Positions 1 through 12,395 of a DNA stretch of 64,000 bases are shown here, piece by piece. A program made the position numbers and the translations under genes. Location: assembly GCA_947467345.1 (NCBI GenBank), contig CANIHD010000004.1, positions 1 through 64,000 on the forward strand, read 5' to 3'. A model generated the notes under the pieces. It did no database searches, had not been told where the DNA came from, and was given only the letters and a program-made list of their open reading frames with translations. The stretch's first letter is position 1; every line of letters begins with the position of its first letter. The stretch comes from Alphaproteobacteria bacterium. GTDB lineage: Bacteria; Pseudomonadota; Alphaproteobacteria; Micropepsales; Micropepsaceae.

Positions 1-85
1 CCCCCGTCGTCCCGCCTTGCGCTAGAATAATCTCGGCCTCGCGCAGCTTACCGATAATCTCCTCAGGCCCGTGCTTCTTGCCCAT
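1..85 (-). CDS. IS3-family transposase OrfA, N-terminal fragment
   Basis: Twenty-eight codons are readable from ATG at 85 running off the left edge. They translate to MGKKHGPEEIIGKLREAEII followed by LAQGGTTG, the typical opening of the helix-turn-helix OrfA subunit of IS3-family (IS407/IS2-like) transposases. OrfA binds the element ends and is normally fused to the DDE integrase OrfB by programmed frameshifting. An AAGGAG ribosome binding site lies about 9 bases upstream of the ATG. The element looks recent enough to retain an intact start. Only the fragment inside the window can be judged. Confidence 0.75.
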   Translation of the reverse strand, partial: MGKKHGPEEIIGKLREAEIILAQGGTTG

Positions 86-148
86 TTGTCTTCTCCTTCA
101 GGGTCCAGACTAAAATAGTCGATGGACCACTCTGAAGGGGGCAGATCA
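1..148 (-). mobile_element. IS3-family insertion sequence, left part cut by window edge
   Basis: The first bases encode the start of an IS3-type OrfA on the minus strand. The sequence just outside it, read on minus, ends in TGATCTGCCCCC at about 137-148, which resembles the inverted repeat end of the IS407 group. The element therefore probably ends near 148, about 30 bases before the MFS gene start at 177. The rest of the element lies outside the window, so OrfB and the second inverted repeat cannot be checked. Confidence 0.7.
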
Positions 149-176
149 ATTCTGTCTCTGTCGTTAAGGAAATTTC

Positions 177-1679
177 GTGAGCGTCGCCGCCGACAAAGTG
201 CACAGACCCTATGTTCTCATCTGTGTCATGCTGGCCGTCTTCCTGGCCTCGATTGAGGTAACGATCGTCGCCACGGCGATGCCGCAGATCGTGGCGGAAC
301 TCGGCGGTTTCGATCTCTATGGCTGGGTTTTTGCCGCGGTGTTGCTGGCTCAGGCCGCCACCACGGTGATCTTCGGCAAATTGTCCGACATCTATGGCCG
401 CAAACCGATTCTGATCATCGGTGTCGTGTTCTTCCTTGTCGGCTCGCTTCTGTGCGGGTTCGCCTGGTCCATGCCGGCCCTGATCCTATTTCGCATCGTG
501 CAGGGGATCGGTATGGGCTCGCTGCAGCCCGTTTCCATGACCGTGTTCGGCGATCTCTACACCCCGGAAGAGCGCGTGCGCATGCAAGGCTATCTTGCCG
601 CTGTCTGGGGCGTCTCTGCCGTTGTGGGGCCATTGGCCGGCGGCCTCATCGTGCAGCACATGACATGGCCCTTCGTGTTCTGGCTGCCGATCCCGGTGGG
701 CATCGCAACCATTATCGGCCTGCAGCTCTACCTGCATGAGAATGTCGAAGAGAAGAAACCCGCCATCGATTATGCCGGCGCGGGACTGGTCACCATCGCC
801 GTCGTTTCTCTGCTGATGGTGCTCACGCTTGTCGGGCAGCCGACGCCCAACACCGGCGCCATCGCACTCTCCGGCGCCGTGTTCGTTCTTTCGCTGCCGC
901 TTCTGTGGTGGCAGGAGCGGCGCGCCCCCGATCCGGTCATCGCCTTCGATCTGTGGACGCATCGCGCCATCGCTTCCGGCAACACCGCTACGCTTTTCGC
1001 GGGCATGGTGTTCATGGGCGCGACCACCTTCCTGCCCGTCTATGTTCAGGCGGTGATGTGGCGCTCGCCGCTTGTGGCGGGCGTGGCCGTTACCATGATC
1101 GCGGTCGGCTGGCCGATTGCGGCGGTGGTTTGCCCGCGCCTCTACAAACGCCAGGGCATGCGCTTCACGGCGCGGATGGGTGGCTTTCTGATCGTTGCCG
1201 GCGCGGTGCCGTTTCTATTTCTCCGCCCCGAGATGTCGCCGCTCTATGTCGCCGCTGCCTCTACCCTGATCGGATTCGGCCTCGGCTTTCTAATGTCCAC
1301 CGTCACCGTTCTGGTGCAAGGCAGCGTGAAATGGGCGCAGCGCGGCAGCGCCACGGCGTCCATTGTGTTCGCGCGCACGCTGGGAAATGCGCTGGGCGCC
1401 GCCGTGCTCGGCAGCATCGTCAACGTAACGCTGGCGACGCAGTCCGTATCACCCGAAGAAATACGCGGACTGCTGGGTCACGCCGCCGCCGCGGCGCCGC
1501 CACCGCTGCATTTGCGGGCGGCGCTGGACCACGGCTTGCACCTCGCCTTCTGGGGCATATTCACCGTGGCCATCGCGACGTTGATCGCGGCGTTCGCAGT
1601 GCCGACGCGCGAACTGCACGAGCTCTCCGGCGGCATCAGCAAGCAACGGCTGCAGCCGCAGTCCAAAGAGCCCGAGTAG
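177..1679 (+). CDS. MFS drug/solute exporter, DHA2 (EmrB/QacA) type
   Basis: A 500-residue inner membrane protein with about 14 hydrophobic segments, the usual count and length for the DHA2 family of proton-driven exporters. The conserved loop between TM2 and TM3 is present as GKLSDIYGRKP near residues 66-76, and an antiporter-type glycine-rich segment (RIVQGIGMGSLQP) follows near residue 105. The start is GTG at 177, chosen because AAGGAA lies about 6 bases upstream. The IS3 end lies about 30 bases upstream, so the native promoter may be displaced or replaced. It converges on a MarR gene. The substrate is unknown; export of an aromatic or toxic compound is an inference from the adjacent oxygenase genes. 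Confidence 0.85.
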   Translation: MSVAADKVHRPYVLICVMLAVFLASIEVTIVATAMPQIVAELGGFDLYGWVFAAVLLAQAATTVIFGKLSDIYGRKPILIIGVVFFLVGSLLCGFAWSMPALILFRIVQGIGMGSLQPVSMTVFGDLYTPEERVRMQGYLAAVWGVSAVVGPLAGGLIVQHMTWPFVFWLPIPVGIATIIGLQLYLHENVEEKKPAIDYAGAGLVTIAVVSLLMVLTLVGQPTPNTGAIALSGAVFVLSLPLLWWQERRAPDPVIAFDLWTHRAIASGNTATLFAGMVFMGATTFLPVYVQAVMWRSPLVAGVAVTMIAVGWPIAAVVCPRLYKRQGMRFTARMGGFLIVAGAVPFLFLRPEMSPLYVAAASTLIGFGLGFLMSTVTVLVQGSVKWAQRGSATASIVFARTLGNALGAAVLGSIVNVTLATQSVSPEEIRGLLGHAAAAAPPPLHLRAALDHGLHLAFWGIFTVAIATLIAAFAVPTRELHELSGGISKQRLQPQSKEPE

Positions 1680-1682
1680 AAC

Positions 1683-2315
1683 TCAGCCCGCTTCGAGCAC
1701 CAGGCGCGCGAGTTCGCGCGTCGAAGGCACGCGCCGGCGCGTATTGGTCGAGTTCAGCTCGTCACCCGCCAGATTCTCGATCACCACCAAAAGCGTCTTG
1801 CGCGTGATGAGAACATTCGCGGCGGATACGCCCGCGACCGCAACCTTGTTCACGTCCTCCGCCAAGGGCTCGAGCTTCTTGCGCAAATTGCGCCCTTTAG
1901 CTGTCAGGCAGATATAGACGTTCTTGCGATTGTTCGGCGCCCGTTTGCGCTTGATGTAACCGAGCGCCTCCATCGACTTCAGCGCAGCGAATGTCGTCGG
2001 TTCGGTGACGCCAGCCTGAACGCTGAGGTCGCGCTGCGTCAGCTCGTCGGTCTGCCAAAGAATGCGCAGGAACGTCCAATGGCCGAACGACACGTTGAAC
2101 TCAGCGAGCCGCATCTGCAATCCACGGACACACGCCCGCCCGGCATCGCGCACGAGATGCGCCAGCCGGTCATTGGGAGCATCGATGCGCCAATGCTTCA
2201 GGATTGCTTCGCGCGCATCCTTGCTGCCCGCACGCAGTGATTTTGGCGCGGCGGCAACTTTGGACAATTTCTTCGACGATGCTTTTTTTGCGGGCAGTTT
2301 TTTTAACTTAGACAA
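1683..2315 (-). CDS. MarR-family transcriptional regulator
   Basis: A winged helix-turn-helix regulator of 210 residues. The MarR core runs from about residue 60 (WTFLRILWQTDELTQRDLSV) through the recognition helix (VTEPTTFAALKSMEALGYI) to the wing (RKRAPNNRKNVYICLTAKG). A lysine-rich stretch of about 40 residues precedes it and may add non-specific DNA contacts. I place the start at TTG 2315 because AGGAGG sits 5 bases upstream. An earlier TTG at 2342 has no such site and would overlap the preceding gene. It is last in a minus-strand run with the MocA-type oxidoreductase and the ferredoxin reductase, so it plausibly controls the aromatic oxygenase genes or the MFS exporter. Ligand unknown. 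Confidence 0.85.
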   Translation of the reverse strand: MSKLKKLPAKKASSKKLSKVAAAPKSLRAGSKDAREAILKHWRIDAPNDRLAHLVRDAGRACVRGLQMRLAEFNVSFGHWTFLRILWQTDELTQRDLSVQAGVTEPTTFAALKSMEALGYIKRKRAPNNRKNVYICLTAKGRNLRKKLEPLAEDVNKVAVAGVSAANVLITRKTLLVVIENLAGDELNSTNTRRRVPSTRELARLVLEAG

Positions 2316-2331
2316 TTCGCCTCCTCGGCGC

Positions 2332-3534
2332 TTAGGCCTCAATGCCGATCTGATATTTCAACGCAACCTCGCGTCGTTCCTTGGCCGATTGGAGTATTGC
2401 CAGACAGACCTCGATCGTCGCAAGCGACCATACGCCGCTATGCAATGGCGCCACGCCAAATATGACGGCTTTGTAAAGTTCGTCGATGACTTCAACGCGC
2501 GGAATTACAGGCGGCGCAAGCGCATCGAGATGTTGCTCGGAATCGCCATAGACCATCACCCCACCAGGCAAAGGGCGCAAATCGGCGTGATCGCAGGACA
2601 CCAGTACAAAGCCGAAATGTTGGTGAGCCACTTTGTCACGCGAGGTGTCGCGCATATCGAGCGTCATATCATTTCGCCCGCCATAACTGCGTGCAGATTT
2701 GGCTGCGGCTTCCGTATCAGCGTCCTTTACAGCCGCCAATGCGGCGCGCGCTGCGCCATAAACGGCGGAATCCTTGGCTATTCCTAGTTCACCTATCCAA
2801 TTGGTAAACTCATCGCTGTCGAAATGGGCATAGCCGCTATAGGTGGCTGTGGCGAAGGCTCCATCCTCGAAATTTAACATAGCGCTATAAGCGCCTTCTG
2901 TGGGGCGTGTTGCATCCCAAGCACCAGTGGCGGCGCGCACGGATTGCACTTTGCCACCGCCCAGAAGCCGCACAATGTCGATTTGATGCGCTGCCTGGCT
3001 GAATATGACACCACCGCCATCTTCGTTACGCAATTCTTCGTGCCGGCACGGGCGATAGAGAAAATCCGTGAAATTCATTGCCTGAATCATACGCACGCGC
3101 CCGTAAATTCCCTTTTCAATCAGCGCACGGACTTTCAGAATCGGTGCGTCGAAGCTGTGGCTGTGCCCCACGATAAGGTGAACATTTGCGGCGCTGGCCG
3201 CTTCGATCATCGCGCGGCAATGGGCCAAGCTCAGCGCCATCGGCTTTTCGACCAATATATGCTTGCCGTTTGCCGCGGCTTCCCGCGCATGCTCCAGATG
3301 GAGCTGATGAGGCGTGGCGATATAAACCACATCAACGTGGGGATCGCGGCACAATTCGGCGATGGTCGCGTAAGCGACCGCCGAGAATTCCGCGGCAAAT
3401 TTTGCACCGGCTTCAGCGCGACGCGTTGCGGCAGCAACCAATTTTACCCGCGGATCGCCCGTGAATGTCGGCACCATCAGGCTAAAAGCGCGGCCCAACC
3501 CCGCAACGCCAATGCCTAATACGCGATCGCTCAT
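2332..3534 (-). CDS. Gfo/Idh/MocA-family NAD(P)-dependent oxidoreductase
   Basis: A 400-residue protein with an N-terminal Rossmann fold (GIGVAGLGRAFSLMVPTF at residues 7-24) and the family signature EKPMALSLAHCRAMIEAA near residue 95, where the EKP lysine lines the active site. The C-terminal half is the alpha/beta dimerisation domain. Members oxidise or reduce sugars, inositols and some aromatic-derived carbonyls. Some, such as the 4,5-dihydroxyphthalate and 4-carboxy-2-hydroxymuconate dehydrogenases of this superfamily, act in aromatic catabolism. The gene lies 12 bases after the ferredoxin reductase gene and 16 bases before marR. A dehydrogenase step in the oxygenase pathway is inferred from this context only. 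Confidence 0.85.
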   Translation of the reverse strand: MSDRVLGIGVAGLGRAFSLMVPTFTGDPRVKLVAAATRRAEAGAKFAAEFSAVAYATIAELCRDPHVDVVYIATPHQLHLEHAREAAANGKHILVEKPMALSLAHCRAMIEAASAANVHLIVGHSHSFDAPILKVRALIEKGIYGRVRMIQAMNFTDFLYRPCRHEELRNEDGGGVIFSQAAHQIDIVRLLGGGKVQSVRAATGAWDATRPTEGAYSAMLNFEDGAFATATYSGYAHFDSDEFTNWIGELGIAKDSAVYGAARAALAAVKDADTEAAAKSARSYGGRNDMTLDMRDTSRDKVAHQHFGFVLVSCDHADLRPLPGGVMVYGDSEQHLDALAPPVIPRVEVIDELYKAVIFGVAPLHSGVWSLATIEVCLAILQSAKERREVALKYQIGIEA

Positions 3535-3546
3535 GGAGTCCGTAAG

Positions 3547-4515
3547 CTAAGCATCGATCGTCAGATCGCCCGTTCGGGCGCGCGAAACGCAGATCATGAT
3601 GTGATTCGCCCTCTCTTCATCGGTGAGAACAAGATCGCGGTGGTCCGCATCGCCCGCCAATAGAAGCGTCCTGCATGTGCCGCAACTGCCGGACTCGCAT
3701 GAGCTGAGCGTCTTCACCCCCTGCTCACGCAAGGTTTCGAGAATGCTTTTATCCTTCGGCACCTCGATACTGCCACCGGAACGCGCCAAGTGCACAACAA
3801 ACGCGCTGTCTTCGATCAAATGTGTGGCAGAGGCTTCAACAAAGCTCTCGAAGTGAAGCGCCTCGCTTGACCAATGCCCCGTCATGTCGCGCACCGACTG
3901 CATCAATCCGCGCGGCCCGCAGCAATACAGATGCGCGCCGCGCGCCTGCTGGAGAATGGGCCATAGATCGAACATCTGCGCCGGATTGCCGCTGTCGTAA
4001 TGTAACTTAACAACGCCACGAAATTCCGGCGCGCTAAGTTCGTCGGCGAAGGCGGCATCCTCACGGGAGCGTGACAAATAATAGAGTTTGAATTTTGCCC
4101 TCCCATGGCTGCGCAAATGTCGCACCATGCTGAGTACCGGCGTGATGCCGATGCCGCCGGCGATAAAGACATAACCAGCGGCGATATCCTTCAGTTCGAA
4201 GTCGTTTTTCGGTGCCGAGACCGGCAGCACATCGCCTGTGTTCGCGGTATCGACCAGGGATTTGGAACCTCCGCGCCCGCCGGATTCTCGTTTCAGCGCA
4301 ATGACATAACGCTCCCGCTCGCTAGGATTGTTACAGAGCGAATATTTTCGTGTGTCACCATTCGAAACACAAACGGAAACGTGTGCACCCGCTGTGAACA
4401 CCGGCAATTCGCCGCCGTCGTTACGCCGAAACTCGAAAAGACGAATATCCTTTGCCACAAATTCCGCGCGCGAAATGTTGAGCGGAAAAAGCGGCGGTGC
4501 GGCGTTTTCGATCAT
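3547..4515 (-). CDS. Phthalate dioxygenase reductase/VanB-type ferredoxin reductase
   Basis: A 322-residue flavin and iron-sulfur reductase. It has an N-terminal FMN-binding barrel (RKYSLCNNPSERERYVIALK near residues 76-95), an NAD-binding domain (FIAGGIGITPVLSMVRHLRS near residue 118) and a C-terminal plant-type [2Fe-2S] domain with cysteines 273, 278, 281 and 309. This FMN-NAD-2Fe2S order is that of the PDR/VanB family, which passes electrons from NADH to Rieske oxygenases. The partner is almost certainly the divergent Rieske oxygenase gene starting 238 bases away. It appears complete. The specific substrate pathway cannot be read from the reductase. Confidence 0.9.
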   Translation of the reverse strand: MIENAAPPLFPLNISRAEFVAKDIRLFEFRRNDGGELPVFTAGAHVSVCVSNGDTRKYSLCNNPSERERYVIALKRESGGRGGSKSLVDTANTGDVLPVSAPKNDFELKDIAAGYVFIAGGIGITPVLSMVRHLRSHGRAKFKLYYLSRSREDAAFADELSAPEFRGVVKLHYDSGNPAQMFDLWPILQQARGAHLYCCGPRGLMQSVRDMTGHWSSEALHFESFVEASATHLIEDSAFVVHLARSGGSIEVPKDKSILETLREQGVKTLSSCESGSCGTCRTLLLAGDADHRDLVLTDEERANHIMICVSRARTGDLTIDA

Positions 4516-4753
4516 AGACCCCGATGCGGTCGAGATTATAAGGGATTAAACAACGCGTTGCGTAGTTAGGAAGCTAAAATGGCAAAAATGTGTTCGCTAC
4601 CGGAACGTATGGTTCGCCCTCCAGTGAACGGCACGGGCGCTGCCATTGGACTAAATCCGCATATCCTCATATCTTAGTGGTCTAACATTACATATTTTAT
4701 AACGTAAACTTTGTGTTTCACGAGCTGGATTTCTACGGTTCACAAGGGCTGGC
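4516..4753. promoter_or_regulatory. Divergent control region between reductase and Rieske oxygenase
   Basis: This gap is clearly more AT-rich than its surroundings, as expected for back-to-back promoters. A partly symmetrical element with TTAC at 4688-4691 and GTAA at 4704-4707 flanks an AT-rich core, and could be an operator for the MarR protein or another regulator. No convincing -35/-10 pair was identified. The assignment as a shared regulatory region rests on gene orientation and base composition. Confidence 0.5.
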
Positions 4754-6091
4754 ATGCTTACCACTCAGGAAAACGACCTCCTCTGCCGCGTCGAGGGCGA
4801 GGCGCCCATGGGCCAGATCATGCGGCGGCATTGGCTGCCGGCATGTTTGAGCGAGGAAGTTGAAGAGGCGGATGGCGATCCGGTCCGCTTACGCCTATTG
4901 GGCGAGGACCTGCTCGCGTTTCGCGACAGCGACGGCAAAGTCGGCGTCATCGGCGAATTCTGCTCACATCGGAACGTGTCGCTCTTCTTTGGCCGCAATG
5001 AGGAATGCGGGCTACGCTGCATCTATCACGGCTGGAAAGTGGACGTCGAGGGCAACATCGTTGAAATGTCGTCGGAGCCGTCGGAAAGCGGCCTGCCTGC
5101 GAAGGTAAAACACAAATCCCATCCCGTGCGGGAAGCGGGCGGCGTCGTCTGGGCCTATATGGGTCCGGCGGACTCTATGCCGGAATTCGAAGCGCCTTTG
5201 TTCGCGCCGACGCCAGATACCAAGATCAGCATTGTCAAAATTCTTATCGACTGCAATTTGGCGCAGATCCTCGAAGGCGCCATCGACTCGGCGCATAGCT
5301 CCAGCCTTCATGCGTCGGATATGCTTCCGGCGCGCGTTGACGGGGCCCAAGCCAATGACAAGATCTGGTTTCGGCCCTCGACGGACAAGGCGCCGAAGCT
5401 CTTTGTGGAAACCACCAATTTCGGTTTTCGTTACGCCGCCATCCGCCGACCGATCACCAACGCGCATACGCATGACTATGTGCGCACAACATTGTTCATC
5501 GCGCCCTATTCGGTCTTGATTCCGCCGAACGACCGCTATCGCATTTGCCTTCTGCACGCGCCTATGGATGACACGCATACGGCCTTCTATTTCATCGCCT
5601 TTGGCGGCGACTCCACGCCCGATCGCGAGACCTGGCGGAAATTCAACGCGGCGCAAATCGGTATCGACGTCGACGCGACATTCAAGAAAACGCGCGTGCG
5701 GGCAAATAATTATCTTCAAGATCGCAAGGCGATGAAGGCAGGCAATTGGACGGGAATTCCCGGCATCCCCAATCAGGACATTGTCATGTGGGAGCCGATG
5801 GGGCCTATCGCCGACAGATCGAAAGACCGGCTGGGCGCCAGCGATGTCGCCATCGCGGCCTTCCGCAAGATGATGCTCGACGCGGCGAAGACCATGGCGG
5901 CCGGCGGTCCCGCCATCGGCACAAACAAGCCGCGCACGCCTTACGCCGAACTTACCTCCTTTGAAGGCTTGTCCCGAAATCCGCCGATTGGCGCGACTTC
6001 GGCACCGACGACCGCGCCATGGTGGCGGAGTAGACTGCCTTTGTGCCGTGCACCTTGTATCGCCGACCCCTTGTCGATAGCGACCTCCTGA
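4754..6091 (+). CDS. Rieske [2Fe-2S] ring-hydroxylating oxygenase, alpha subunit (3' frameshift)
   Basis: The oxygenase component of a two-component Rieske system, related to phthalate 4,5-dioxygenase and vanillate demethylase oxygenases. The Rieske cluster ligands are C70-x-H72 and C89-x2-H92. The mononuclear iron site is N168...D178-x2-H181-x4-H186. Near base 5975 the frame appears to slip. One extra C in the CCC run would continue as KSADWRDFGTDDRAMVAE and stop at 6033, which resembles the usual C-terminus of the family. The frame as written instead runs to 6091 through 35 or so low-quality residues (NPPIGATSAPTTAPWW and on). This is either a real indel or a base-call error. All catalytic residues lie upstream of it. 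Confidence 0.88.
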   Translation: MLTTQENDLLCRVEGEAPMGQIMRRHWLPACLSEEVEEADGDPVRLRLLGEDLLAFRDSDGKVGVIGEFCSHRNVSLFFGRNEECGLRCIYHGWKVDVEGNIVEMSSEPSESGLPAKVKHKSHPVREAGGVVWAYMGPADSMPEFEAPLFAPTPDTKISIVKILIDCNLAQILEGAIDSAHSSSLHASDMLPARVDGAQANDKIWFRPSTDKAPKLFVETTNFGFRYAAIRRPITNAHTHDYVRTTLFIAPYSVLIPPNDRYRICLLHAPMDDTHTAFYFIAFGGDSTPDRETWRKFNAAQIGIDVDATFKKTRVRANNYLQDRKAMKAGNWTGIPGIPNQDIVMWEPMGPIADRSKDRLGASDVAIAAFRKMMLDAAKTMAAGGPAIGTNKPRTPYAELTSFEGLSRNPPIGATSAPTTAPWWRSRLPLCRAPCIADPLSIATS

Positions 6092-6130
6092 GCTTCACTC
6101 CGTTAAATCTCGCTCGCCCGGAAGGCATTC

Positions 6131-6724
6131 ATGGACATGGAATTGAAGCCGCTTTTCGCGACGCCGGTCGTGAAGCTTCATTTGCCCGAAACGGAAATGC
6201 TGAAGCAGAAATTCGCGCCCGAGATGCTGCGCCGCTATCGCGCGGGGCAATATAATCCGCCAGCGATTTGGGAGACGGATCGCATCCACACAAGCTTCGG
6301 CGCTGCCTCAAAAGACCAAGTGATTTCGCCGTTGCCGGCTGCTTACGAGAAGCTTCTCGGCCAATTCGTCCGCAGTGAGCGCTACGGCCTAGCGCTCTGG
6401 CACAATGTCTATTGGGACGGGCAGGAATATCAGGAGAAACATCACCATATTCCGGGCCACATCTCTTTCATCCATTTTCTTCTGTTCGATAACGCCGAGC
6501 ACAAGGCACCGATTTTCTACGATCCGGCGCGAACGACGAAAGCCTATTGCCGCCACCCTGCTTTGCCGCCCGAATTTTCCTCGGAAGCGGCGAAGATCGA
6601 TGTCGCCGAAGGCGATGTTCTGGTCTTCCCCTCATGGCTTGAGCATCACGTGCCGCCGGGCAACTACACCAAGCCGCGGATCACCGTGTCGATGAATATA
6701 ACTTTGCCGACACCGGGATTTTGA
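6131..6724 (+). CDS. Putative 2OG-Fe(II) oxygenase (TIGR02466 type)
   Basis: A 197-residue protein with the outline of the small 2-oxoglutarate/Fe(II) oxygenase family TIGR02466/PF13759. A histidine-rich strand (EKHHHIPGHISFIHFL near residues 99-114) precedes the distal motif FPSWLEHHVPPG near residue 168 and KPRITVSMNI, where the arginine would bind 2-oxoglutarate. Which histidines form the metal site cannot be settled by eye. It follows the Rieske oxygenase gene on the same strand, 98 bases after the shifted-frame stop, and is probably co-transcribed. It may hydroxylate the same pathway intermediate or a peptide/amino acid side chain. Function is unproven. Confidence 0.75.
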   Translation: MDMELKPLFATPVVKLHLPETEMLKQKFAPEMLRRYRAGQYNPPAIWETDRIHTSFGAASKDQVISPLPAAYEKLLGQFVRSERYGLALWHNVYWDGQEYQEKHHHIPGHISFIHFLLFDNAEHKAPIFYDPARTTKAYCRHPALPPEFSSEAAKIDVAEGDVLVFPSWLEHHVPPGNYTKPRITVSMNITLPTPGF

Positions 6725-6728
6725 AATT

Positions 6729-8162
6729 CTACTTCGCGACTTTATGGCCGCTGATGCGCGCGCCCGCATCGCGCGGTAAGCCTGCATAGTCGATGACGGC
6801 CAGCAGGCCGATGACGCCGACCGCCAAGAATGCCAAGCGAAAATCGGTGATGCTAAGCATGGCGTCTCCGGGATGTCGCGTAAGCACGACAAGCTGCAGA
6901 ATAAATGTGCTGATCGCGATGCCGAGGCCGAACCCGACCTGCCACACGACGCCCACTAAGGTGGATGCCGCGGTCTTATGTGCGTCTTCGATGTCCGCGT
7001 AAGGCAGCGTGAAAATGCAGGATAGGCCTATCGAACGCACTGCGCCCGCGAACACCAGTAAGACAAAGGCGAGCGGCAATCCCACTGTGGGTGAAAGAAG
7101 TCCGCACGCCACAATGGCAAGGGCCGACAACACGCCGTTGACCGTCAATACAGTCCGAAAACCGTAATTGCGGATCAGCGGCGTCGTCACGGATTTGATG
7201 GCGAGATTGCCAATGGCGTAGCCAAGCACCAGAAGACCCGAAACAAAGGCCGTCACGCCGAAGCCTTGCTGAAAGAAAAGCGGCAACAGGAACGGCGTGG
7301 CGCCCACCGACATCAGAAAGAAAATACCGCCACGCACGATCACCGCGAAGGTGCGCGTTTTCAGCGGCGCCAGATCAATCAGCGGAAAGGGATGCTTCTT
7401 GGCATGCCGGACAGCGAGCACACCGGCGCAAAGGCCGATAGCAATCGACACGAAGGCCGCCGACCAGGCGAGATGATCGACCAGCGACAGCCCGTACATG
7501 ATGGCCGCAAGAGTCACCGCAGTCAGCGCAAAGCCAAGCCCATCAAATGGCCGCCGCACAGCGCCGTAATGATTGTCGATGCTGCGCATAGCGAGCGCGA
7601 TGCCGGCAATGCCGATGGGCACATTGAGGAAAAATATCCAATGCCATGTCAGATAGGTGGCGAAGAAGCCGCCCAGTGGCGGCCCGAACACAGGCCCGAT
7701 GAGTCCGGGCCAGGTGGATATATTGATGGCGCGCACCACCTCGTCTTTGTTGGCGCCACGCACAATGACGAGACGCCCCACCGGCGACATCAACGCAGCA
7801 GACGCGCCCTGCACAATGCGCGCCGCGACGAAGCTGGTGAGATTTGGACTAAGGCCGGCCGCGATAGATGAGAGCGTAAACACGGCAATGGCGCCGCAGA
7901 AAACATTGCGCGAGCCGAAACGGTCGGCCGTCCAGCCGCTAAGCGGAAGGAATATTGCGAGCGCCAGAAGATAAGACGTGATGCCGATGCTGAGCTGCGT
8001 GACATCGACGCCGAATGACACCGCCATCGCCGGCAGCGCCGTCGCGATCACCGTTCCGTCCAGCCCTTCCATGAAAAAGGCGGTGGCCACCACAGCGGCC
8101 ATCATCGTTGTCCGACGGGACAACGAGGAGGGAGTGCGCGCGGATACCACCTGGTCGGTCAC
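6729..8162 (-). CDS. MFS exporter, DHA2 (EmrB/QacA) type
   Basis: A 477-residue membrane protein with about 14 hydrophobic segments. It has the family opening FFMEGLDGTVIATALPAMA (TM1), the loop SGWTADRFGSRNVF and the motif RIVQGASAALMSPVGRLVI. The start is GTG at 8162, with AGGA just upstream. It follows the cupin gene by 6 bases, so the two form a small operon. It is a second DHA2 transporter in the same island and is not a close copy of the one at 177. The gene ends 4 bases from the convergent 2OG oxygenase gene. Substrate unknown. Confidence 0.87.
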   Translation of the reverse strand: MTDQVVSARTPSSLSRRTTMMAAVVATAFFMEGLDGTVIATALPAMAVSFGVDVTQLSIGITSYLLALAIFLPLSGWTADRFGSRNVFCGAIAVFTLSSIAAGLSPNLTSFVAARIVQGASAALMSPVGRLVIVRGANKDEVVRAINISTWPGLIGPVFGPPLGGFFATYLTWHWIFFLNVPIGIAGIALAMRSIDNHYGAVRRPFDGLGFALTAVTLAAIMYGLSLVDHLAWSAAFVSIAIGLCAGVLAVRHAKKHPFPLIDLAPLKTRTFAVIVRGGIFFLMSVGATPFLLPLFFQQGFGVTAFVSGLLVLGYAIGNLAIKSVTTPLIRNYGFRTVLTVNGVLSALAIVACGLLSPTVGLPLAFVLLVFAGAVRSIGLSCIFTLPYADIEDAHKTAASTLVGVVWQVGFGLGIAISTFILQLVVLTRHPGDAMLSITDFRLAFLAVGVIGLLAVIDYAGLPRDAGARISGHKVAK

Positions 8163-8168
8163 AGGATC

Positions 8169-8690
8169 CTAAGCTTTAGCGCCCCAGAACACGCCATCGA
8201 TAACCACGGGGTTTTTGTGCCCGTTCTCTTTAGACTCGCTGGGTAGCGGCTCGCCATAGACATTGTAACGCCCATGATCCGCGCGGGGTCCCACATGCGC
8301 CGCGACGCGGAGCAACACCAAGGGTTCGTCGCCGACGGCGTGGAAGCGATAGAAGCAGCCGACCGGAATCATGATGCCTTCATAGGGACCGAGGTGGCGT
8401 TCCTCGCCGCGCGGTCCATAGAAACAAGCGCGCCCGCTCATCACCAGATGGAAATGATCTTCGTCGCTGTGATTGTGCAGACCGTTTTCGCCGCCCGACG
8501 CATAGACCTTGAGATTGACATACATGTTGTCCGTCTCGGCCACGGTCTGATTGCTGCGGCCATCCGCGAGAACGGGCGCGCGCAATTTGAAGAATTGCGG
8601 CGGCGGACTAGAAGCGATCACCGCCTCACGCGTTGCTCGCATGGAATCGGTTTCGCCGGCGGCACGGCCTCTGTCAATGACATCGGACAT
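8169..8690 (-). CDS. Cupin-domain protein
   Basis: A 173-residue single cupin. The metal-binding motif 1 is GLHNHSDEDHFHLVMSG near residues 70-86 (ligand pattern HxH...E/H). Motif 2 (PVGCFYRFHAVGDEP) follows about 20 residues later. Such proteins may be small dioxygenases, isomerases or ligand sensors. AGAGG lies 5-6 bases before the ATG at 8690. It is the first gene of an operon with the DHA2 transporter and sits beside the Rieske and 2OG oxygenases. A catabolic role is likely but the reaction is not evident from sequence. Confidence 0.8.
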   Translation of the reverse strand: MSDVIDRGRAAGETDSMRATREAVIASSPPPQFFKLRAPVLADGRSNQTVAETDNMYVNLKVYASGGENGLHNHSDEDHFHLVMSGRACFYGPRGEERHLGPYEGIMIPVGCFYRFHAVGDEPLVLLRVAAHVGPRADHGRYNVYGEPLPSESKENGHKNPVVIDGVFWGAKA

Positions 8691-8729
8691 GGCGACCTCT
8701 GCTTAGCGTTACGGGTTATGCTTTCACGC

Positions 8730-8805
8730 CAGTGTCGCGGTTCCGAAGTTCGCCATGTTTCCAATATCGGCTATCCAAGCGAACTTCGGAACCAAAGCGA
8801 CACTG
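8730..8805. repeat. Imperfect inverted repeat, first of a pair
   Basis: The left arm is at 8730-8753 (CAGTGTCGCGGTTCCGAAG and following). The right arm at 8779-8805 is its reverse complement apart from a three-base AAA bulge. The arms pair over about 24 bases around a loop of about 25 bases. The repeat lies in the gap upstream of the cupin gene and downstream of the PEPCK gene. No T-run follows, so it is not a classic terminator. It could be a mobile hairpin repeat or a structured leader. Confidence 0.75.
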
Positions 8806-8818
8806 GAACTAACACTTA

Positions 8819-8895
8819 GCTGGCGTCCTTACGATTCTGAAATTCGCATCGTCCCGATATAGCGAGCGAACGAATTTCAAAATCGGGACGCCAGC
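8819..8895. repeat. Imperfect inverted repeat, second of a pair
   Basis: The left arm at 8819-8846 begins GCTGGCGTCC and contains TGAAATTCG. The right arm at 8871-8895 (CGAATTTCAAAATCGGGACG and following) is its imperfect reverse complement. It begins 13 bases after the preceding inverted repeat. On the minus strand it lies about 45-120 bases downstream of the PEPCK stop, so it may act in mRNA 3'-end formation or protection. Confidence 0.7.
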
Positions 8896-8939
8896 TTCGC
8901 ATTCGCTTCGGCGAACTTCAAACCGCTTAAACGCGAGGA

Positions 8940-10766
<1,827 letters not shown>

Positions 10767-11138
10767 AACAACCCCTGATGTGGCGCTGAGACTTGGCCAC
10801 GTAAAGATGCCCCTGGCTGCGCAAGGCCGGGCGGATGCCGTAGCATCCTGGGCTCCAAAATTTCGGACCGGGCGCATCGCCCAGCCCTCCCGTCCATTCC
10901 CTTGGGATAGCGGGAGGCCTTTTCTTCAGGACATGGGCCCGGGGGTCAAGTCAAGGCGCTGCAAAGAGTGAACAAAAATGGTTTCCGATCATTATTTCGG
11001 TCCGGTGGCGTACGAACTTCCTTTCGGCCGGCCCCTCCGATTTATGTTTTTGCAGTACAGCAAAGGCCTTAGCGGATCCCATCTGGTGTCGGTCCATTGC
11101 CGCCCCGGCCTAATCGTCTTGGTGGCAGGCGGGCGACG
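10767..11138. promoter_or_regulatory. Divergent region between pckG and threonine dehydratase
   Basis: About 370 bases without a credible gene. It holds the promoters of two divergent genes. A hairpin with arms CCTCCCG (10886-10892) and CGGGAGG (10911-10917), followed by CCTTTTCTT on the plus strand, looks terminator- or attenuator-like. However, no plus-strand gene ends upstream of it. On the minus strand it would sit in the pckG leader about 120-180 bases before the start codon. No known riboswitch motif was recognised. Confidence 0.4.
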
Positions 11139-12395
11139 GTGACAGAGTGGCGCAATGAGCCCATTGCTACCCCCGATAGTCAGGTTTTTCCCGTCACGCT
11201 CGCCGACATTGAGGCGGCGGCGGCGGCGATTGAAGGTGCGGTGGAGCGGACGCCTGTGCGCTCGTCCAGGACATTGTCCTCCATCGCCGGGGCCGAGCTC
11301 TTCCTGAAATTTGAGAATTTGCAGTTCACCGCCTCGTTCAAGGAACGCGGCGCGCTGAACCGGCTGCTCGCCCTTGAGCCCGACGAGCGCAAACGCGGCG
11401 TGATTGCGATGTCGGCCGGCAACCACGCGCAAGGCGTCGCCTACCATGCGGGGCGCCTCGGCATTCCCGCCACCATCGTCATGCCGGAAGGCACACCTTT
11501 CACCAAGGTGAAGCACGCGCGCGATTTCGGCGCCGATGTCATCATCGAAGGCGCCAGCCTGAGTGAAGCCGCGAAAGTCGCGCGCGACATAGCGGCGCGC
11601 GAGCACCTGACCTTGGTGCATCCTTATGACGATACGAAGGTGATCGCAGGTCAGGGAACGGTGGCGCTGGAGCTGCTCGCCGATGTGCCAGAGCTCGACA
11701 CGCTGGTGATCCCAGTGGGCGGCGGCGGACTCATCTCCGGCATGGCGATCGCGGCGCGCGCGATCAAACCGGATATCCGGATCTATGGCGTTCAGTCGGC
11801 GCTTTATCCTCCGATGATCAACGCCGTAACAGGTGAAACGCGTGCGCTCTCAGGCCAGACCATTGCCGATGGTATCGCCGTCAAGGAGCCCGGCGTTTTC
11901 ACACGCGCGATCATCGCGCATCTGGTCACCGATCTTCTCACCGTGCGCGAATCTGACATCGAAGATGCCATGGCGCGGCTCTTGGAAATCAGGAAGACGG
12001 TCACCGAAGGCGCCGGCGCTGCGGCACTAGCCGGCGTGCTGGCCCATCCGCATCTCTTCGAAGGACGCAAAGTCGGAATCGTACTCAGCGGCGGCAATAT
12101 CGACATGCGTTTGCTCACTAATGTCATCTTGCGCGAATTGGCGCGCGAAGGGCGCATTCTGTCTTTGGTGCTGACCATCGACGACAGGCCGGGGCTTCTG
12201 GCGCAAATCGCAACTCTGGTCGGCGAATGCGGCGGGAATATTCTCGAGGTTTCGCACAATAGGCTTCTGACCGGCGTGTCCGCCAAATCGGCCGATCTCG
12301 GCATGGTGGTGGAAGCGCGCGACGGGGCCCATGCAAACGAGATCAAAATTCGCCTGGGCGCTGCCGGATTCACTGTACGCGAACAGGCGCGCTGA
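11139..12395 (+). CDS. ilvA: Threonine ammonia-lyase (PLP-dependent, with ACT domain)
   Basis: A fold type II PLP enzyme of 418 residues. The PLP lysine lies in SFKERGALNRL (K68), the phosphate-binding glycine loop is VGGGGLISGMA and the NHAQGVAYHA segment is also typical. The C-terminal 70-80 residues (LVLTIDDRPGLLAQIATLVG) form an ACT domain. It deaminates threonine (and perhaps serine) to 2-oxobutyrate, feeding isoleucine synthesis or catabolism. The length and single ACT domain match the shorter IlvA/TdcB-like enzymes of Proteobacteria. GTG 11139, with AGGCGGG upstream, is preferred over a TTG at 11097. It stands alone. Whether it is biosynthetic or degradative cannot be told. Confidence 0.88.
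   Translation: MTEWRNEPIATPDSQVFPVTLADIEAAAAAIEGAVERTPVRSSRTLSSIAGAELFLKFENLQFTASFKERGALNRLLALEPDERKRGVIAMSAGNHAQGVAYHAGRLGIPATIVMPEGTPFTKVKHARDFGADVIIEGASLSEAAKVARDIAAREHLTLVHPYDDTKVIAGQGTVALELLADVPELDTLVIPVGGGGLISGMAIAARAIKPDIRIYGVQSALYPPMINAVTGETRALSGQTIADGIAVKEPGVFTRAIIAHLVTDLLTVRESDIEDAMARLLEIRKTVTEGAGAAALAGVLAHPHLFEGRKVGIVLSGGNIDMRLLTNVILRELAREGRILSLVLTIDDRPGLLAQIATLVGECGGNILEVSHNRLLTGVSAKSADLGMVVEARDGAHANEIKIRLGAAGFTVREQAR

Follow-up and report, generated by a model that had tools for sequence, protein, structure and literature searches.

The window analyzed here, meaning the whole 64,000-bp stretch of DNA, comprises bases 1 to 64000 of contig C4 (base 1 of the contig is the window start) in a 2.49-Mb genome assembly of 25 contigs (G000). 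ORF and domain checks of the window recovered all the genes named in a preliminary description of this DNA at their expected positions. The minus strand carries genes for a MarR-family regulator (1683 to 2342; PF01047), probably that of the module discussed below, a MocA-type dehydrogenase (2332 to 3534; PF01408 and PF22725), and a probable phthalate dioxygenase reductase (3547 to 4515). Divergent from these, on the plus strand, lie the gene for a probable phthalate 4,5-dioxygenase oxygenase subunit (4754 to 6091; PF00355 and PF19301, LigXa_C) and a 2OG-Fe(II) oxygenase gene of narrow distribution (6131 to 6724; PF13759). Two operator-like sites, TTAGGAAGCTAA at 4566 to 4577 and TTAGTGGTCTAA at 4674 to 4685, each match a palindrome common to related loci. 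Genes for a DHA2/MdtD-like MFS exporter (6729 to 8162) and a small cupin (8169 to 8690; PF07883) follow on the minus strand, and a DHA2-like MFS exporter gene (177 to 1679, plus strand; PF07690) precedes the regulator, outside the conserved module. The Gfo/Idh/MocA, MarR, and cupin assignments of the preliminary description are thus borne out by their domains. It had also counted two exporters within 1683 to 8690; both genes exist, but the first lies outside that interval.

At the contig start, 28 codons on the minus strand (2 to 85) may be the beginning of an IS3-type orfA, truncated where the contig ends. This would be the IS3 end that had been proposed; a piece of this length has no Pfam match. 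The lowest GC content among the 32 bins of the window is found in bins 2001 to 4000 and 4001 to 6000, i.e., in the module itself; together with the possible IS end this fits acquisition without proving it. Rfam gave no match in 1 to 12000. Beyond the cupin gene, two adjoining palindromes of ~80 bp (8715 to 8905) have very strong predicted folding (z score of -9.84). The pair has one further copy, 82% identical and inverted, at C4:69579-69746; beyond both copies no genome match was better than an E value of 0.4, and none was found on plasmids.

Among the solved structures of the PDB, 7fjl was the best sequence match to the Rieske protein (1.8e-178). We take 7fjl (also 7v25 and 7v28) to be the PDO of Comamonas testosteroni KF1 (PDO_KF1) because residue numbers in the excerpted text of PMC12445078 fit its chain. 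The window protein is likewise a LigXa_C-type subunit, with the Rieske 2Fe-2S motif and the LigXa_C catalytic domain both present, and shares 247 of 393 aligned residues (63%) with PDO_KF1. H181, H186, and D343 presumably form the metal-binding triad of PDO; the alignment showed the triad positions, and the D/H/H/D positions overall, to be kept in the window protein. Also kept are all four PDO_KF1 residues, S182, R207, R244, and I256, that the excerpted text of PMC12445078 ties to phthalate binding or dioxygenation. The isophthalate enzyme carries V178 where the window protein has S182, and L198 where it has R207 (same excerpt), so that these two residues set the window protein apart from it. 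The residue test is not exclusive, all eight checked residues occurring in 35 of 54 rows.

A tree of 53 rows, from which short hits and duplicates were left out, placed the window Rieske protein with those of L003 (Micropepsaceae) and L009 (support 100/99). The three fall within a 34-row group that includes PDO_KF1, the sole characterized row (support 99/96, with a midpoint root only and some distant rows on long branches). The window protein differs from PDO_KF1 in belonging, with Micropepsaceae-type proteins, to a separate, supported subgroup, and in a tail that is out of frame in the present assembly. Judged from sequence comparison, gene 4754 to 6091 probably encodes the oxygenase subunit of a phthalate 4,5-dioxygenase.

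Further Rieske genes occur in this genome and its congeners. On contig C9, three LigXa-type Rieske genes stand in tandem, accompanied by genes for a Pht5-like protein and an alcohol dehydrogenase (L066, G000:C9:39458-43252). Similar arrays exist in congeners: a triple in G004 (L067) and, in G002, a pair (L068). In each of the eight Rieske proteins of L066 to L068, the I256 position is an arginine, and of the four PDO_KF1 residues this is the only one at which the three C9 paralogues differ from the window protein. In two congeners (L147 and L148), the closest MocA relative (56 to 57%) adjoins a different Rieske protein (37 to 38%) whose substrate residues, in contrast to those of the window, are altered to A at 182, D at 207, and R at 256, an arrangement that suggests partner exchange. 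A second, distant Rieske and MocA pair (~32% and 39 to 41%) lies on contig C14 (L040, G000:C14:23777-25903), with a two-domain cupin gene nearby.

The reductase implied by the earlier proposal of a two-component Rieske oxygenase is present at 3547 to 4515. Its best solved match was the phthalate dioxygenase reductase 2pia (2.4e-107), likewise a one-chain reductase, with residues 11 to 321 of 322 aligned; unlike in that system, the window reductase gene is divergent from the oxygenase gene. The MocA-type dehydrogenase best matched the 4,5-dihydroxyphthalate dehydrogenase 7wzd (8e-140), aligned over residues 6 to 392 of 400, and we saw no notable difference between them. The reductase and dihydrodiol dehydrogenase genes are adjacent, as in a pht/oph cluster.

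To compare gene neighborhoods, the contigs of genomes were scanned, which gave 37 loci. Thirty-four loci were chosen (L003 to L029, L034, L065, and L122 to L126), including one more relative and five plasmid loci hand-picked from 20 of 79 records; L063 and L064, which repeat L003 and L009 in length and in the layout of their genes, were left out. Of the 34, 33 were kept (L126 fell under the 59% identity limit); in 20 of these, the Rieske gene is flanked on each side by 4 kb or more. A neighbor gene was counted as present if the locus DNA examined gave a tblastn match with an identity of 30% or higher at any place. Among the 20 well-flanked loci, genes for MarR (18), MocA (17), and the reductase (18) are nearly always present, those for a Pht5-like protein (11), NadC (14), a two-domain cupin (12), and an EutA-like protein (12) less often. 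The MarR relatives are mostly 55 to 66% identical, a few 33 to 49%. Gene order in other genomes had been proposed earlier as a check: the exact divergent order of MarR-MocA-reductase and Rieske occurs in 12 of the 20 well-flanked loci and in 15 of all 33. The nearest tree rows, L003 and L009, have no MarR, MocA, or reductase gene and no operator-like site beside the Rieske gene; L003 is a short 5.4-kb contig with only 932 bp upstream of that gene.

The plasmid clusters of Polaromonas (pPNAP04), Caballeronia sp. M1242, and Thalassospira likewise hold the Rieske, PDR-type reductase, MocA, and MarR genes together. They also contain Pht5-like and transport genes, whereas the window has no Pht5-like gene and adds the 2OG oxygenase, small cupin, and MFS genes. 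Of the plasmid loci, the Rhizobium one is without MocA, whereas the other four have a Pht5-like gene in addition to the Rieske, reductase, MocA, and MarR genes. The Pht5-like family is named a decarboxylase here because the neighbor in Polaromonas pPNAP04 is annotated as 4,5-dihydroxyphthalate decarboxylase.

The intergenic stretches of the relatives share a palindrome around TTAGNNNNCTAA, with a consensus close to ACTTAGANNTCTAAG. This motif was first noticed by eye across the window and its relatives jointly, and the counts were made later. It occurs twice in the 64-kb window, both times between the reductase and Rieske genes (0.12 sites expected); two sites were found in none of 100 shuffles of the window. 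The count in relatives covered 31 of the 34 chosen loci (L028, L029, and L034, whose gene start is missing, were left out), and in 26 of the 31 the motif lies at most 500 bp upstream of the Rieske start. Its density was 41 sites in 15,226 bp upstream, compared with 8 in 482,165 bp elsewhere. Five loci missed. In three of them, L003 (short), L009, and L021, the DNA examined gave no match to MarR; in L122 and L125 a site is present further upstream. The TTAGNNNNCTAA sites were not picked up when the intergenic stretch was scanned for inverted repeats in general, and a sigma-70 scan of it found no plus-strand promoter.

The motif is probably the MarR operator, as suggested by its place and distribution. 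Most simply, each of the two divergent promoters would have one site for a MarR dimer, with binding and inducer predicted. The preliminary description had placed the operator at 4688 to 4707; this position was set aside, the relatives sharing the sites at 4566 to 4577 and 4674 to 4685 instead. In the open-licence literature, including the excerpted text of PMC13040137 and PMC11683335, we found nothing relevant on a phthalate MarR operator.

Genes for later steps lie elsewhere in the genome. Contig C22 encodes LigA (TIGR02792), LigB (NF009903), and LigK (TIGR02798), all over their curated cutoffs, in a protocatechuate 4,5-cleavage operon, so that a protocatechuate route is at hand; from their Pfam domains, we take the neighboring genes to be LigC-, LigI-, and LigJ-like. 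Intradiol cleavage of protocatechuate was rejected, the genome having no PF00775 match at 1e-3. The LigA, LigB, and LigK genes and the absence of an intradiol dioxygenase match fit the standard order, in which phthalate is converted via a dihydrodiol and 4,5-dihydroxyphthalate to protocatechuate (PMC13040137, section 2.3). No Pht5-family decarboxylase gene was found on contig C4, and hence none in the cluster, among whole-genome matches to a Pht5-like protein. These matches number ten and mark nine places, two of them being pieces of one C2 gene, the most similar Pht5-like gene, which is split by a frame break in the assembly. The Pht5-like/NMT1-type places are on C1, C2, C8, C9, C14, and C22, and congeners have 3 to 13 matches; the family looks expanded in this 2.5-Mb genome. 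We recognized no phthalate importer within the island.

The preliminary description had guessed at turnover of an aromatic acid by ring hydroxylation and then dehydrogenation under MarR control, with phthalate among the candidate substrates, and had found no pathway to name. All but the last of these ideas are supported. The last no longer holds: each of the three enzymes has a phthalate-pathway enzyme as its best solved match, so that a name can be given, that of the phthalate 4,5-dioxygenase module. Building on gene identities established by similarity, on residue conservation and gene order, and on the operator-like sites and Lig genes, we consider it very likely that 1683 to 6033 is the divergent control-and-entry module of an ortho-phthalate 4,5-dioxygenase pathway, with putative control by MarR and predicted decarboxylation in trans. 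The Rieske oxygenase would receive the electrons that the reductase takes from NAD(P)H and would convert phthalate, its predicted substrate, to the cis-4,5-dihydrodiol, and the MocA-type dehydrogenase would convert this to 4,5-dihydroxyphthalate. A Pht5-family decarboxylase encoded elsewhere would then act in trans to give protocatechuate, to be broken down by LigA, LigB, and LigK and the presumed LigC-, LigI-, and LigJ-like set of C22. MarR bound to the two TTAGNNNNCTAA sites would keep both divergent promoters off, and would be released when phthalate or a product of it is present.

The same chemistry might instead act on another ortho-dicarboxylic or substituted aromatic acid, such as a pyridine dicarboxylate or a plant-derived phthalate analogue. 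The 63% identity of the window Rieske protein to PDO_KF1, set against 345 of 394 residues for a Polaromonas protein, leaves some room for this, and so do the non-classical genes in the relatives' loci, namely nadC (14 of 20) and those for the two-domain cupin and the EutA-like protein (12 of 20 each). A Rhodococcus phthalate 3,4-dioxygenase is, moreover, reported to be active on quinolinate (PMC13040137, section 2.3). All four residues for phthalate binding and dioxygenation are kept, however, the reductase and dehydrogenase also best match phthalate enzymes, and the one nadC gene of the window genome is on C16, away from the island. We regard a different substrate as unlikely.

A decaying remnant of a phthalate module, its pathway no longer working, would be compatible with the same gene identities, and is similarly improbable. 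It draws on the frameshift noted earlier in the Rieske gene, which is indeed present in the assembled sequence, and on the split Pht5-like gene on C2, with none on C4. In the alignment, the relatives' tail is of the SFEGVVPK..DWR kind, often with AAE at its close. The window Rieske protein matches it up to SFEGL and then slips at about 5971, from where the other frame reads VPKSADWRDFGTDDRAMVAE and continues the conserved tail to a stop at 6031 to 6033. The window protein does not carry the relatives' tail in frame; this tail is not known to be essential. Only the last ~20 codons are out of frame, and the checked active-site residues, upstream of the break, are all unaffected. The displaced frame is still open and ends much like the relatives. 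The MarR, MocA, and reductase genes have intact frames, and neither operator-like site has been lost. The two breaks lie at short single-base runs and could be assembly errors, and the genome has eight other Pht5-family places. The Rieske break may be real or an assembly error, and by itself it does not show a dead pathway.

The remaining genes probably stand apart from the module. The 2OG oxygenase belongs to its family through PF13759 (49.1 bits, with a cutoff of 27), but the earlier TIGR02466 label fails (39.1 bits, below the cutoff of 62.5). At 1e-15, relatives occur in 2 of 61 near genomes including its own, the other being G004 (68%); at 1e-20 only its own genome matched among 385 of the class, G004 not being among the matches of that draw. 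No match was found on plasmids at 1e-5, and 18 phage records matched weakly (at most 30.5% identity in the best 10 of the 18). The predicted structure, from a two-row alignment, has a mean pLDDT of 33.9 and was set aside. The two MFS proteins, described earlier as DHA2 exporters, are indeed nearest DHA2-type models, but at 181.5 and 206.7 bits both fall below the TIGR00711 cutoff of 230.2. The small cupin has matches in 10 of the 385 class genomes, including its own. Its two closest relatives found (65 to 67%) have genes for UbiD decarboxylases and a TetR regulator next to them, and the cupin may thus belong to a different aromatic pathway. We conclude that the 2OG oxygenase, the MFS protein of 6729 to 8162, and the cupin are probably unrelated or accessory to the phthalate module.

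The preliminary description had instead joined the 2OG oxygenase to the Rieske oxygenase in one path, and a pathway in which these two, the cupin, and the exporters act on one aromatic compound could appeal to the position of the 2OG gene, which shares the strand of the Rieske gene and starts ~100 bp beyond the point where the displaced tail ends, and to the UbiD neighbors of the cupin relatives. Such a pathway is quite unlikely because the 2OG oxygenase, small cupin, and both MFS genes accompany the module in none of the 20 well-flanked related loci; further, the G004 2OG relative has no Rieske gene on the 11.3 kb examined of its 20.3-kb contig, all G004 Rieske matches at 1e-80 or better being on other contigs, and no operator-like site lies near these genes in the window. 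A new mixed pathway was therefore set aside. We know of no two-oxygenase branch of phthalate metabolism. It is highly doubtful that the 2OG oxygenase, whose full-strength matches in these searches are confined to this genus, acts as a step in such a branch; if it did, it might bypass the missing decarboxylase, for example by acting on an intermediate of the phthalate or dihydroxyphthalate type.

In the relatives, the gene for quinolinate phosphoribosyltransferase, nadC, recurs in 14 of the 20 well-flanked loci (L004, L005, L006, L007, L010 to L015, L017, L020, L122, and L123), and the copies beside phthalate dioxygenase genes belong to at least two distant nadC lineages. NadC is inhibited by phthalate. 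Structures of the yeast and Mycobacterium tuberculosis enzymes contain bound phthalate (PMC3633916, as excerpted). The nadC copies in phthalate loci may be phthalate-tolerant spare copies. We found no joint treatment of phthalate, quinolinate phosphoribosyltransferase, and a gene cluster in the open-licence literature; where phthalate, nadC, and quinolinate are treated together there, the subject is the porcine enzyme.

The phthalate 4,5-dioxygenase module is a known kind of system, here added to a poorly known Micropepsaceae-like group of alphaproteobacteria. Worth keeping beyond this are the shared operator and the nadC association. In alpha-, beta-, and gammaproteobacteria alike, the MarR regulator is found together with phthalate 4,5-dioxygenase genes, and its putative operator could serve as an ortho-phthalate sensor, while the recurring nadC beside phthalate dioxygenase genes suggests a testable idea of self-protection.
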